A stretch of DNA of 33,880 nucleotides from assembly GCA_021162745.1 (NCBI GenBank), contig JAGGYC010000091.1, positions 1 to 33,880 of the forward strand. Reading direction: 5' to 3'. Both the position numbers and the translations under genes were made by a program. This document shows positions 13,917 to 23,328 of this stretch, piece after piece. A model generated the notes under the pieces. The model searched no databases. It saw only the letters and a list, made by a program, of their open reading frames with translations, and had not been told where the DNA came from. Numbering within the stretch: position 1 is the first letter of the stretch; every line of letters begins with the position of its first letter. Source of the DNA: Desulfuromonas sp. Lineage in GTDB: Bacteria; Desulfobacterota; Desulfuromonadia; Desulfuromonadales; Desulfuromonadaceae.

Positions 13917-13928
13917 AATTTAAAACCT

Positions 13929-14141
13929 ATCTCGCGCAAAGAGCGCGGGGGAGGTCCAAGGCAAAATCATTGTTTTCGGTTTAGATCTTACCCTCGAATT
14001 TTTGGTTTAGATTTTGCTTTTCTCTGCGACCTCTGCGTCTTGAGTGAACGAAGTGAACGGGCGCGAAACAGGTTTTGACGTTGCCTGAACGTAAATGAAT
14101 TTAGCTTTTTGCAATAACGTTTTTTTGCTGATAGTTACAAA
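13929..14141 (+). repeat. Dispersed ~213-bp palindromic repeat, copy 1
   Basis: This lies in the 276-bp ribE-ribBA gap and is closely matched at 23113-23328. Shared blocks include ATCTCGCGCA, TTTAGATCTTA, ATTTTTGGTTT, CTCTGCGTCTTGAG, GAACGAAGTGAACGGGCGCGA and a right end ATAGTTACAAA. The outer TCTCGCGC/GCGCGA ends are inverted repeats. The type resembles the intergenic CTCTGCGTCTT palindromes seen in many bacterial genomes. Spurious short frames arise from it. Confidence 0.85.
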
Positions 14142-19698: not shown

Positions 19699-20112
19699 AT
19701 GGCATTTCAACGAAAAAAGCGGGAAGATATCCGGGTCGAACTGACACCGATGATCGATGTGGTATTCTTATTGCTGATCTTCTTTATGATCTCGACCACG
19801 TTTGTTGAATCGTCAGGCATTGATATCAATCTGCCGACAGCCACCAATCAGAAAATTGATAAACAGCCGCACGAGGTGAAGGTCTACCTTGAGAAGTCTG
19901 GTCTGATTCACCTTAACGATCGCTTGGTCTCTCTGGATGATTTACAGACTCACTTGGCGAGTTATGGGCGCCGGGCATCTTCAACAACCTTTGTGTTGCT
20001 GGCCGATGAACAGGCGAAACATGGCCGGGTTGTCAACCTGATGGATATTGCTCAGCGAGCTGGATTTGCGAAGCTGGCGATTGCGACGGAACCAAAACCG
20101 CTTACAAATTGA
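19699..20112 (+). CDS. exbD: ExbD/TolR family biopolymer transport protein
   Basis: A 137-aa protein with a single N-terminal membrane helix. The conserved segment VELTPMIDVVFLLLIFFMISTTFV contains the essential membrane Asp (about residue 21). The periplasmic part contains INLPTA and KVYLEKSGLIHLNDR. It is the partner of the ExbB protein 38 bp upstream. The stop codon lies 14 bp before a dispersed structured repeat, which may act as the 3' end of the transcript. Confidence 0.9.
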   Translation: MAFQRKKREDIRVELTPMIDVVFLLLIFFMISTTFVESSGIDINLPTATNQKIDKQPHEVKVYLEKSGLIHLNDRLVSLDDLQTHLASYGRRASSTTFVLLADEQAKHGRVVNLMDIAQRAGFAKLAIATEPKPLTN

Positions 20113-20125
20113 TAAACAGGGCCTT

Positions 20126-20289
20126 AGCAGGCTGTCTGGCTTGGCGAATCGTAGCGAGAAATTAGCTGGTCGAGAACAGATTTTCGGACGTTTGAGAGCG
20201 AATAGCTGGACTATTTGTCGAAAATGTCTGGGAATATGGGCCGATCTGATGATTTCGCAGTAGATTCATGCAAAGCCTGATAGACTGCT
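20126..20289 (+). repeat. Structured ~165-bp repeat, copy 1 (upstream of pfkA)
   Basis: Direct copy of 21411-21576 with about 20 differences by eye, mostly in the ends. The ends AGCAGGCTGTCTGGCTT and AAGCCTGATAGACTGCT form an imperfect inverted repeat with two mismatches and one G-U pair. An internal stem (CGGACGTTT with AAATGTCTG) is also present. No transposase or obvious target-site duplication is visible. Confidence 0.9.
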
Positions 20290-20315
20290 CTGTCCCTTTT
20301 TTGTTGGAGAAGGCT

Positions 20316-21413
20316 ATGAAAACAGTTGCGATTCTTACCGGTGGCGGAGACTGCCCAGGGCTGAATGCTGTGATCCGTGGTGTGGTGCGTAGCGCCGTTG
20401 GGCAGCATAAATGGCGGGTGGTCGGTATTGAAGATGGTTTTGATGGCCTGTTACATGGGCTGTGCTACCGTGAGCTGGATTTGAAATCAGTTCGCGGCAT
20501 ATTACAGTTAGGCGGAACCCTGCTGGGAACCAGTAATCATGGTAATCCTCTTCATTATCCGGTGATCGAAAATGGCGAAACCCATTGGCTGGATGTTTCC
20601 GATCAGGTGGTGGAAAATTTTAATCGCCTCGGTGCTGATGCGCTAATTGCCGTTGGCGGTGATGGAACATTGAAAATTGCCCAACACTTATATGAACTGG
20701 GTATGAATGTCGTTGGTATCCCCAAGACGATTGATAATGATCTAAAAGCGACAGATGTGACCTTTGGTTATAACACCGCCGTAGGGGTTGTTACTGAGGC
20801 ACTTGACCGTCTTCATACCACGGCAGAAAGCCATCATCGCGTGATGGTGGTCGAGGTGATGGGGCGCGATGCCGGTTGGATCGCCCTGGAGTCAGGCATT
20901 GCCGGTGGCGCTGATGTGATTTTGTTACCGGAAATTCCCTACAATATAGAGCGGATTTGCCAGGCCATCCAAAAGCGTCGTGAAAGCGGTAGTCGTTTCT
21001 CGATCATTGTTGCTGCTGAAGGTGCCCGCTCTCGTCATGGTCAACAGGTTGTACAGACCATGGCAGGGGATAGCCGCAGTGGTGTTGAGAGACTCGGTGG
21101 TGTCGCGCAACAGGTTGCTGACGAGATTCGTCAATGTCAGGATATTCAGGACATGGAGGTGAGAACCGTTGTCTTGGGTCATTTGCAACGAGGAGGATCG
21201 CCTTCCCCTTTTGATCGCATCCTCGGTTCGCGCTTTGGTGTTAAGGCCGTTGATCTGATTGCCGCAGGAGACTATGGCAAAATGGTTTCACTGCGTGGCC
21301 GCAATGTCGGTTCAACAACGCTGGCCGAAGCTGTTGATTCGTTGAATTTGGTTGATCCCTGTGGCGAATTGGTCAATGCGGCAGAAAAATTAGGAATTAT
21401 GCTGGGGCGTTAG
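20316..21413 (+). CDS. pfkA: 6-phosphofructokinase
   Basis: A 365-aa PFK that phosphorylates fructose 6-phosphate in glycolysis. Motifs are TGGGDCPGLNAVIRG at the N-terminus, GGDGT (114-118), PKTIDND (136-142) and MGRDAGWIALESG. The Gly at the GGDG position fits ATP use (PPi enzymes have Asp), while the Lys in PKTIDND is the residue seen in the long group III branch, so this is probably an ATP-dependent group III enzyme. The ATG at 20316 follows GGAGAAGG; an ATG at 20268 would lie in the repeat. The TAG stop (21411-21413) is the first triplet of repeat copy 2. Confidence 0.95.
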   Translation: MKTVAILTGGGDCPGLNAVIRGVVRSAVGQHKWRVVGIEDGFDGLLHGLCYRELDLKSVRGILQLGGTLLGTSNHGNPLHYPVIENGETHWLDVSDQVVENFNRLGADALIAVGGDGTLKIAQHLYELGMNVVGIPKTIDNDLKATDVTFGYNTAVGVVTEALDRLHTTAESHHRVMVVEVMGRDAGWIALESGIAGGADVILLPEIPYNIERICQAIQKRRESGSRFSIIVAAEGARSRHGQQVVQTMAGDSRSGVERLGGVAQQVADEIRQCQDIQDMEVRTVVLGHLQRGGSPSPFDRILGSRFGVKAVDLIAAGDYGKMVSLRGRNVGSTTLAEAVDSLNLVDPCGELVNAAEKLGIMLGR

Positions 21414-21576
21414 GAGACTGTCGGACTTGGCGAATCGTAGCGAGAAATTAGCTGCTTGAGAACAGATTTTCGGACATTTGAGAGCGAATAGCTGGCCAAT
21501 TTGTCGAAAATGTCCGGGGATATGGGCCGATCAGATGATTTCGCAGTAGATTCTTGCTGAGTCCGACAGTCTCCTA
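21411..21576 (+). repeat. Structured ~165-bp repeat, copy 2 (between pfkA and CDF gene)
   Basis: Ends TAGGAGACTGTCGGACT and AGTCCGACAGTCTCCTA are a perfect 17-bp inverted repeat. Inside, CGGACATTT pairs with AAATGTCCG. The outer TAG is the pfkA stop codon and the outer CTA is the stop of the convergent cation transporter. It probably folds in both transcripts and may serve as a bidirectional 3' end; no T run was seen. Confidence 0.92.
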
Positions 21577-22494
21577 GGTCTTGTTGGGGGAGGTGCAGTC
21601 GTCGTGATTGCGACACTCGGCACAGCTGGTCGGCTCAAGGTGGATGGTAATATCCGCATTGCGGATCAATCCCATAATCTCTTTTTCAATTTCATCTGCA
21701 ATATCGTGAGTTTCTTGAATCGTTTTAAAGCGACAGAAACTCAGGTGAAAATCGATCATCCTGACGGTGCCACTGCGTCGGGTTCTCAGGTTGTGGTAGC
21801 CGGTAATGGCCTGTTGATGCTTCTCAATGCACTGGCGGATCAATGCCAATTGTTCGGCAGGCAGCCCGGCATCAAGAAATTGATCCATGCTGTTTTTTAG
21901 CAGCCCATAGGCTGCTTTGAGAATGTAAATCCCCACCCCGAGAGACAGCAGTGGGTCCAGCCAACTCCAGCCTAACAGTTTAACGGCCAGCAAACCGATC
22001 ACTAAAACCAGATTGCTATAGACATCCGTTGCATAATGGAGGGCATCGGCCTGTAGAGCGGATGATTCCGTTGCGACACCGACCCTTTTCAGGTGCCGGC
22101 TCAAAAACCATGAGGCAATAACGCTGATTGTCAGCACGGCAATGCCGAGATTCAGGCGATTAAGTTCGCTGCCCAGGCGTAATCGTTGCACCGATTCAAA
22201 CAGGATGTAAACACCGGAACAGGCAATCAAAAGGCTCTGGAGCAGGGTGGCTGCCGTTTCAAATTTACCGTGACCGTATGGATGGTCCGCATCAGCTGGT
22301 TTTTGAGCATGGCGCAAGGCAACAAAGTTGCCGCATGACATGAGAATGTCCAGCAATGAATCGACCGCTGAGGCAAACAGCGCCATCGATCCTGTAAACA
22401 GGCCGGTTATCAGCTTGAGCACCGCCAGCAGGCTGGCAGTAATGATGGCCATGCGTGCGGCCTTGAGTCGGCGTTGTCCTTGCTCACTGTTCAT
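21574..22494 (-). CDS. Cation diffusion facilitator family metal exporter
   Basis: A 306-aa CDF/YiiP-like inner-membrane antiporter exporting divalent metals (Zn, Fe or Mn) against protons. Site A residues Asp45, Asp49 (SAVDSLLD) and His153, Asp157 (ALHYATD) are present, and Asp68, His71, His75 (ADADHPYGHGK) match site B; the numbers coincide with E. coli YiiP. A cytoplasmic C-terminal domain follows. The protein ends in an extra Cys/His tail (CAECRNHDDC). It is convergent with pfkA and its stop lies in the repeat end. Confidence 0.92.
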   Translation of the reverse strand: MNSEQGQRRLKAARMAIITASLLAVLKLITGLFTGSMALFASAVDSLLDILMSCGNFVALRHAQKPADADHPYGHGKFETAATLLQSLLIACSGVYILFESVQRLRLGSELNRLNLGIAVLTISVIASWFLSRHLKRVGVATESSALQADALHYATDVYSNLVLVIGLLAVKLLGWSWLDPLLSLGVGIYILKAAYGLLKNSMDQFLDAGLPAEQLALIRQCIEKHQQAITGYHNLRTRRSGTVRMIDFHLSFCRFKTIQETHDIADEIEKEIMGLIRNADITIHLEPTSCAECRNHDDCTSPNKT

Positions 22495-23011: not shown

Positions 23012-23112
23012 GTGGATGGCTCCTAAAAAAATTTGGCGGATTGTAACATGAACTGTGCCCTGATAGAATGTAAAATTCTGGCAACTAGTCAACCTGCAAA
23101 AGCATAAAAGCA

Positions 23113-23328
23113 ATCTCGCGCAGAGTACGCAAAGAGCGCAGAGAAGATCAAAGGCAAAAGATCGTGTTTTTGTTTTAGATCTTAACCCTGAATTTTTGGT
23201 TTTGCCTTTCTCCGCGATCTCTGCGTCTTGAGAGAACGAAGTGAACGGGCGCGAGAATAGATTTAGACGTGGCCCGAACTTAAATAAATTGGCTTCTTGT
23301 TGTAGGCCTTTTGCTGAATAGTTACAAA
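23113..23328 (+). repeat. Dispersed ~213-bp palindromic repeat, copy 2
   Basis: The second copy of the 13929-14141 element in the same orientation, filling most of the 340-bp gap between 23012 and 23351. It is more palindromic than copy 1: the left part (TCTCGCGCAGAG, CGCAGAGAAGATC) is inverted in the right part (GATCTCTGCG, GCGCGAGA). The conserved tail TTTGCTGA..ATAGTTACAAA extends beyond the palindrome. Confidence 0.85.

Follow-up and report, generated by a model that had tools for sequence, protein, structure and literature searches.

A 164-nt palindromic repeat on either side of pfkA in Desulfuromonas: a probable ERIC-like MITE with IS1182-type ends and a fold apparently selected on one strand

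ERIC, like the family described here, is an intergenic repeat of fixed length that forms a long, imperfect palindrome and is present in many copies in several genera; to our knowledge no autonomous partner of ERIC is known, whereas the present element has ends in common with a subgroup of IS1182-family insertion sequences. The two differ also in length (about 127 bp for ERIC, a constant 164 nt here) and in the order of their hosts. A second system, the MITE Chunjie, belongs to Geobacter uraniireducens, a bacterium of the same order as the genome studied here; with its 178-235 bp against 164 nt, it is set apart by description. Copy numbers per genome are quoted for ERIC in the excerpt of PMC10969869 used here, which gives 38 copies for Chunjie, and the excerpt of PMC5678879 describes IS1272, of the IS1182 family, as inserting at inverted repeats, which it replaces, with no target duplication. 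Multicopy intergenic sequences, some of them palindromic, are reported from Geobacter metallireducens, G. bemidjiensis and Pelobacter carbinolicus (PMC2700814, PMC2996986, PMC3543383); the excerpts of these three papers mention neither an IS1182 link nor a covariation test, and the comparison with them is by description.

In the window, that is the whole stretch of 33,880 nucleotides analysed here, two copies of the palindromic element lie in the same orientation (plus strand) on either side of pfkA. Copy 1 (20126..20289; ends AGCAG...CTGCT) separates an ExbD/TolR-like gene (19699..20112, plus strand; scores under the curated cut-offs) from pfkA, while copy 2 (21412..21575; ends AGGAG...CTCCT) lies where pfkA and a cation-efflux gene converge. 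The pfkA gene, encoding 6-phosphofructokinase (20316..21413, plus strand), scores 455.6 bits with TIGR02483 (cut-off 430.55) and is flanked by the element without belonging to it, its start at 20316 having been placed by us; the cation-efflux gene, of the CDF family, occupies 21574..22494 on the minus strand and scores 234.7 bits with TIGR01297 (cut-off 82.35). The two copies, 164 nt each, differ by 20 mismatches and no gaps, exactly the figure that an earlier note on this DNA had approximated, and both belong to a direct repeat family of the window (D1; 176 nt at 87% identity). The bounds given here agree with the placement by the covariance model; the earlier note had started copy 2 at 21411, a position which is in fact the T of the pfkA stop codon.

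Copy 2 completes the TAG stop codon of both its neighbours: that of pfkA (21411..21413) is formed by the flanking T and the first two bases (AG) of the element, that of the CDF gene (21574..21576, minus strand) by the element's last two bases together with the A next to them. One insertion is therefore common to two convergent genes, each of which still has a proper stop codon. Among nine relatives of the same genus, none carries the element after pfkA, and in five pfkA ends in CGTTAG without it; the C-terminus of the CDF protein is longer than in the window in eight of the nine, namely all those where the CDF gene was found. From these comparisons it follows that the insertion of copy 2 preserved one stop, that of pfkA, and probably trimmed the CDF gene. 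At the site of copy 1, seven of the nine relatives align straight across, that is, they show an empty site. The suggestion that the repeat is a mobile structured element is borne out by these relatives and by the many copies found elsewhere. The window also holds other repeats, namely a second dispersed one of about 150 bp (CTCTGCG...GAACGAAGTGAACGGGCGCGA; 13921-14070 and 23105-23254), with 22 matches in the same genome, and, at 503-549, a tandem pair of perfect 23-bp copies with a 24-base period (D20).

The two copies are not alone: in their own genome (2.9 Mb, 163 contigs) the search returned 29 rows, of which 25 are clear and the last four at chance level; three contigs start or stop inside a copy, and some of the clear rows are fragments at contig ends. 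A first survey found the element in 25 of 58 genomes, its own included, and 101 full-length regions were reduced to 81 unique copies, mostly of 163-166 nt, whose orientation is clear, one strand scoring 99-169 bits and the opposite one 0-45. With a covariance model built from 54 copies, matches were obtained in 89 of 136 genomes and in 37 of the 53 genera of the order, which is Desulfuromonadales by the names of the carriers; since at most 21 candidates were scored per genome, copy numbers are lower bounds. In a sample of 395 genomes of the phylum, 10 match, five of them outside the order. A pattern scan gave at least 107 named loci; among the matches listed most are from Desulfuromonadales (Geotalea toluenoxydans, Desulfuromusa, Desulfuromonadaceae MAGs), the other names being Desulfobacteraceae, Deltaproteobacteria, Pseudodesulfovibrio, Saccharibacteria and a "Chloroflexi" MAG. 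This last assembly, JADFVC01, holds the element pattern in five contigs (L173, L180, L221, L249, L262) and is probably misnamed or mixed with Desulfuromonadales.

The element is short, dispersed and non-coding, and only 6 of 180 insertions fall within a long reading frame. Spread by plasmids or phages was considered and set aside, as neither the plasmid nor the phage collection searched gave a match to the element, though the coverage of these hosts by the collections is uncertain; in the same plasmid collection, searched in the same mode, ERIC matches 337 records. Shrunken relatives were also observed, namely a 23-bp palindrome consisting of little beyond the two ends (L112, 1052-1074; L113, 1036-1058) and 64-bp shortened forms at several places of one genome, G055 (L125, L128, L129); their presence at several places suggests that short hairpins may also have spread. 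No description of this family was recognised among the papers listed by the searches, and it is quite possible that the family is already included in the multicopy tables of the Geobacter and Pelobacter genome papers; a text search for the sequence motifs of the element matched, among the matches listed, the word Chunjie alone.

The consensus fold, derived from 54 copies, comprises 56 pairs in five helices, so that the whole element forms one long imperfect hairpin. At these pairs, copy 1 has 45 Watson-Crick, 7 G-U, no A-C and 4 other combinations, copy 2 has 45, 10, 0 and 1, respectively; both copies fold far better than their dinucleotide shuffles (z of -5.78 and -7.95). Of the two compensatory changes from which a selected fold had been proposed, that at stem pair 3 (C-G in copy 1, G-C in copy 2) was seen again in a pair-by-pair check; that at pair 14 (G-C and A-T) can be read from the sequence, but lies outside the 56 consensus pairs of the family. 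The proposal itself is upheld at the level of the family, where paired changes in the 54 non-redundant copies (from the 81 unique ones, at pairwise identity under 92%; alignment A2) are greatly above both column shuffles and slid registers: 94.2% of the cells are paired against 83.6 in shuffles, 37 of the 56 pairs show double changes against 22.7, double-change cells number 312 against 99, and the covariation score is 0.381 against 0.189, a value reached by none of 500 shuffles; registers slid by 1-3 columns stay far below the true one. Both controls remove relatedness incompletely. In five copies (L017-L019, L021 and L022) the outer stem is replaced on both arms with pairing intact. A conserved imperfect palindrome with compensatory change is found in ERIC as well.

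A fold may be maintained in the DNA duplex or in one of its strands, and the two cases can be told apart: a G-U pair on the plus strand is an A-C pair on the other strand, so that a double-stranded palindrome should treat both alike. At the pairs with a Watson-Crick majority, 178 elements in fixed register show 646 G-U, 160 A-C and 679 other mismatched cells, as compared to 843, 421 and 1416 when the 3' letters are shuffled; A-C is thus depleted 2.6-fold, other mismatches 2.1-fold and G-U 1.3-fold, and the G-U:A-C ratio is 4.0:1 against 2.0:1 in shuffles, about half of the raw asymmetry being due to column composition. The choice of Watson-Crick-majority pairs dropped 9 of 63 pairs in a parsimony analysis of 79 copies; with all pairs kept, the 178 elements give 1365 G-U and 173 A-C cells. 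The same parsimony analysis, from which two copies with internal deletions (L069 and the first one of L085) were left out, counts 181.7 changes from Watson-Crick to G-U and 63.0 to A-C, of which 150.8 and 59.1 on terminal branches. The unequal depletion indicates that the fold of one strand is constrained, and it is the fold of the plus strand which, on these statistics, appears to be under selection. In ERIC too, G-U prevails over A-C (30:11 at Watson-Crick-majority pairs of 23 non-redundant copies, with pairs from RNAalifold, L310 left out of the seed and no shuffle control).

The strand asymmetry bears directly on a first alternative, namely that the family is neutral palindromic repeat DNA whose arms are corrected, in the absence of selection, by template switching at the hairpin. 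Long palindromes do undergo such correction, shortened forms exist (the 23-bp palindrome in G006, the 64-bp forms in G055), and the widest clusters have singletons without bias (44:41). Template switching, however, re-creates Watson-Crick pairs equally on the two strands; it leaves unexplained both the stronger depletion of A-C than of G-U and a G-U:A-C ratio of 79:11 on internal branches (178 elements, single parsimony reconstruction), and a strand bias of this kind is missing from the unpaired columns of the 79 copies (37.0 against 40.8 changes). Template switching alone is rejected, the asymmetry speaking against it, and neutral repeat DNA is, in our judgement, highly improbable. Recent changes are less biased, the within-cluster singletons being 38:20 at a cut-off of 8%, 73:42 at 12%, 94:59 at 18% and 44:41 at 25%; we read this as new changes being near neutral, with the constraint acting mainly in the lineages that multiply.

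A second alternative is that the copies serve the host, as cis-acting RNA elements of its mRNAs (3'-end processing, stability or termination). They are indeed mostly intergenic and often begin at a stop codon, and ERIC and Correia elements are reported, in the excerpt of PMC10969869, to affect mRNA decay. Relative to the neighbouring genes, on the other hand, the copies are oriented at random (82 gene ends in sense, 79 in antisense; 35 of type ++ and 35 of type --), and the G-U:A-C ratio on terminal branches is similar in every orientation class: 77:33 in sense and 87:40 in antisense copies, 28:18 in convergent, 24:9 in divergent and 69:25 in other contexts (single reconstruction). As selection through the host transcript would invert the ratio in antisense copies, this likeness counts against an element of host mRNAs. 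Nor is there a T-tract: the scan for intrinsic terminators (GC-rich stem followed by a T run) found none at either copy, its two sites both lying within pfkA. On these three grounds the 3'-end signal considered in the earlier note is rejected, and selection for a role in host mRNA is given a very low probability. Both comparisons, by branch and by orientation, support a constraint that tracks the lineages giving further copies, rather than the host transcript around a copy. It is possible that the copies act as RNA; the promoter scan found no sigma-70-like promoter inside the plus strand of either copy, which counts against an autonomous RNA, and the promoter-like match observed (9 of 12) lies on the minus strand, overlapping the start of copy 2. 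The Rfam 15 covariance models gave no match at the gathering score over the whole window.

As to how such copies multiply, the ends of the element, AG(G/C)AG-N-CTGTCGGACTT, match the TIRs of a Desulfuromonadales subgroup of the IS1182 family, which is present in the window's own genome and was found starting from an IS-like end in another carrier (G039). The protein of one locus (L132) scores 366 bits with NF033551 (IS1182 family; cut-off 270), and the copy in the own genome reaches 364.5 bits when its neighbours are included in the frame; this copy (G000:C78) is 1583 bp from end to end, with an uninterrupted frame and the shared end motif. Members of the subgroup were found in 8 of 136 genomes at E values up to 1e-40; each of these eight also carries the repeat, and in all nine subgroup loci scanned (L278-L286, eight genomes) the shared motif is present, with at most 4 mismatches, at one or both ends; copies with both ends show TAGCAG-N-CTGTCGGACTT or variants within the same tolerance. 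Other IS1182 members scanned (e.g., L289, L290 and L295) are without it. The AGCAG variant is common to the insertion sequence and some repeats of the window's genus, AGGAG to an IS fragment and the repeats in G039; a further 17 carrier genomes were tested and have either no IS1182 member, fragments of one, or members devoid of the shared end, the fragment of G039 excepted. The comparison was one of ends, with a likeness seen over the terminal 20 bp or so only, and the element differs from the insertion sequence in having no transposase and in being palindromic throughout. Solo ends considered as belonging to full autonomous elements (G000, G006, G039, G055, G057) turned out to be full or shortened copies, or had no recognised transposase. 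Judging from the shared ends, we infer that an IS1182-family partner most likely moves, or moved, the element in trans; such a partner is rare today, and its occurrence in 8 of 136 genomes, compared to 89 of 136 for the element, implies that mobilisation is mostly past or carried out by another enzyme. Two further structures were seen among these loci: an 85-bp deletion derivative with both IS1182-type ends (own genome, contig 74; L149, 580-664), representing a second kind of MITE, and an IS200-like Y1 gene (PF01797, 128.8 bits; L135, 858-1304) inside the 2.1-kb IS1182 copy of G009, in which a Y1 element seems to be nested.

Y1 enzymes are central to a third alternative, in which the repeat resembles REP/BIME sequences and owes its movement to a transposase of the RAYT type (HUH, Y1) that works on one folded strand of DNA. 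Strand-specific folding and insertion with no visible duplication would suit a single-strand mechanism; Y1 genes (PF01797) are present in 17 of 18 carrier genomes tested, with 92 matches (search in carriers only), and one of them (L349, G006:C316, 644-973) sits between a partial (444-519) and a full (1492-1656) copy on the same strand, others lying near copies by their coordinates at G000:C19 (325 bp away) and G057:C352. Against this, the element shares its ends with an IS1182-family insertion sequence of the DDE type, and among 30 Y1 loci examined with their flanks the element was found at one and a lone end-like motif at two more; the element thus does not flank these Y1 genes as a rule, and mobilisation by a RAYT-type enzyme is, in our judgement, very improbable.

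The insertion sites are informative as well. Of the 180 insertions, 139 have ends that align in full; among these the left flank prefers C (118) T (101) and the right flank A (106) G (93), which gives CT^AG as the preferred target. Considering both ends of the 180 insertions, 105 ends face a reading frame open for at least 150 codons with its stop between -60 and +120; in 44 of them (43 TAG, 1 TAA) the stop is exactly on the element boundary, in 20 anywhere inside the element and in 41 outside. As chance truncation in one of three frames predicts about half as many as these 20, many of the boundary stops are landings on existing stops. The replacement of a target hairpin, described for IS1272, is not evident here: the 45-nt flanks are less structured beside the element (-7.67 kcal/mol) than 200 nt away (-8.98), whereas perfect stems with a length of at least 7 are slightly more frequent there (3.7% against 1.2%), and this mixed evidence is too little to support structure-targeted insertion. 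At one pair of loci with 82% identity (L273 and L275) the insertion is plain, preceded by CC and followed by AG, which speaks against a TA duplication at that site; at CTAG targets, duplication of TA and no duplication look identical. Five element ends adjoin another end-like motif directly.

Taken together, the short dispersed copies, the TIRs common to an autonomous element and the insertion polymorphism with empty sites are those of a MITE, and we regard the family as a MITE that works like ERIC. We consider it probable that the family is non-autonomous, bears the ends of an IS1182-family insertion sequence, targets CT^AG and has the fold of one strand under selection. According to this mechanism, a 164-nt element running from AG(G/C)AG to CT(C/G)CT would be supplied with transposase in trans by the insertion sequence and would land preferably at CT^AG, often the CTAG of a TAG stop codon; with AG as its first and CT as its last bases, the element allows an adjacent gene to retain a TAG stop or to acquire one. 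It folds over its whole length into a long imperfect hairpin, and on the statistics given above the fold of one strand is kept by selection. As to the molecule that folds, the free exchange between G-U and Watson-Crick pairs leans to RNA, and the structure-dependent transposition described for a relative, IS1272, leans to single-stranded DNA.

A further step, which we regard as doubtful, is that the folded single strand is itself the spreading form, an IS1182-type structure-dependent transposase, like that proposed for IS1272, or another enzyme taking up the hairpin of one defined strand as DNA or even RNA. If this were true, the strand-specific conservation of wobble pairs, observed here and in ERIC, would be a common mark of structure-guided mobility in bacterial palindromic MITEs, and landing sites that leave a TAG stop would let the host gene survive. 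The action of a folded strand in ERIC-like MITEs is otherwise hard to test; the present family is large enough for the strand test, the comparison of G-U with A-C by orientation and branch offers a way to detect such action from sequence alone, and a transposition assay is within reach, as the genome also contains a likely autonomous partner.
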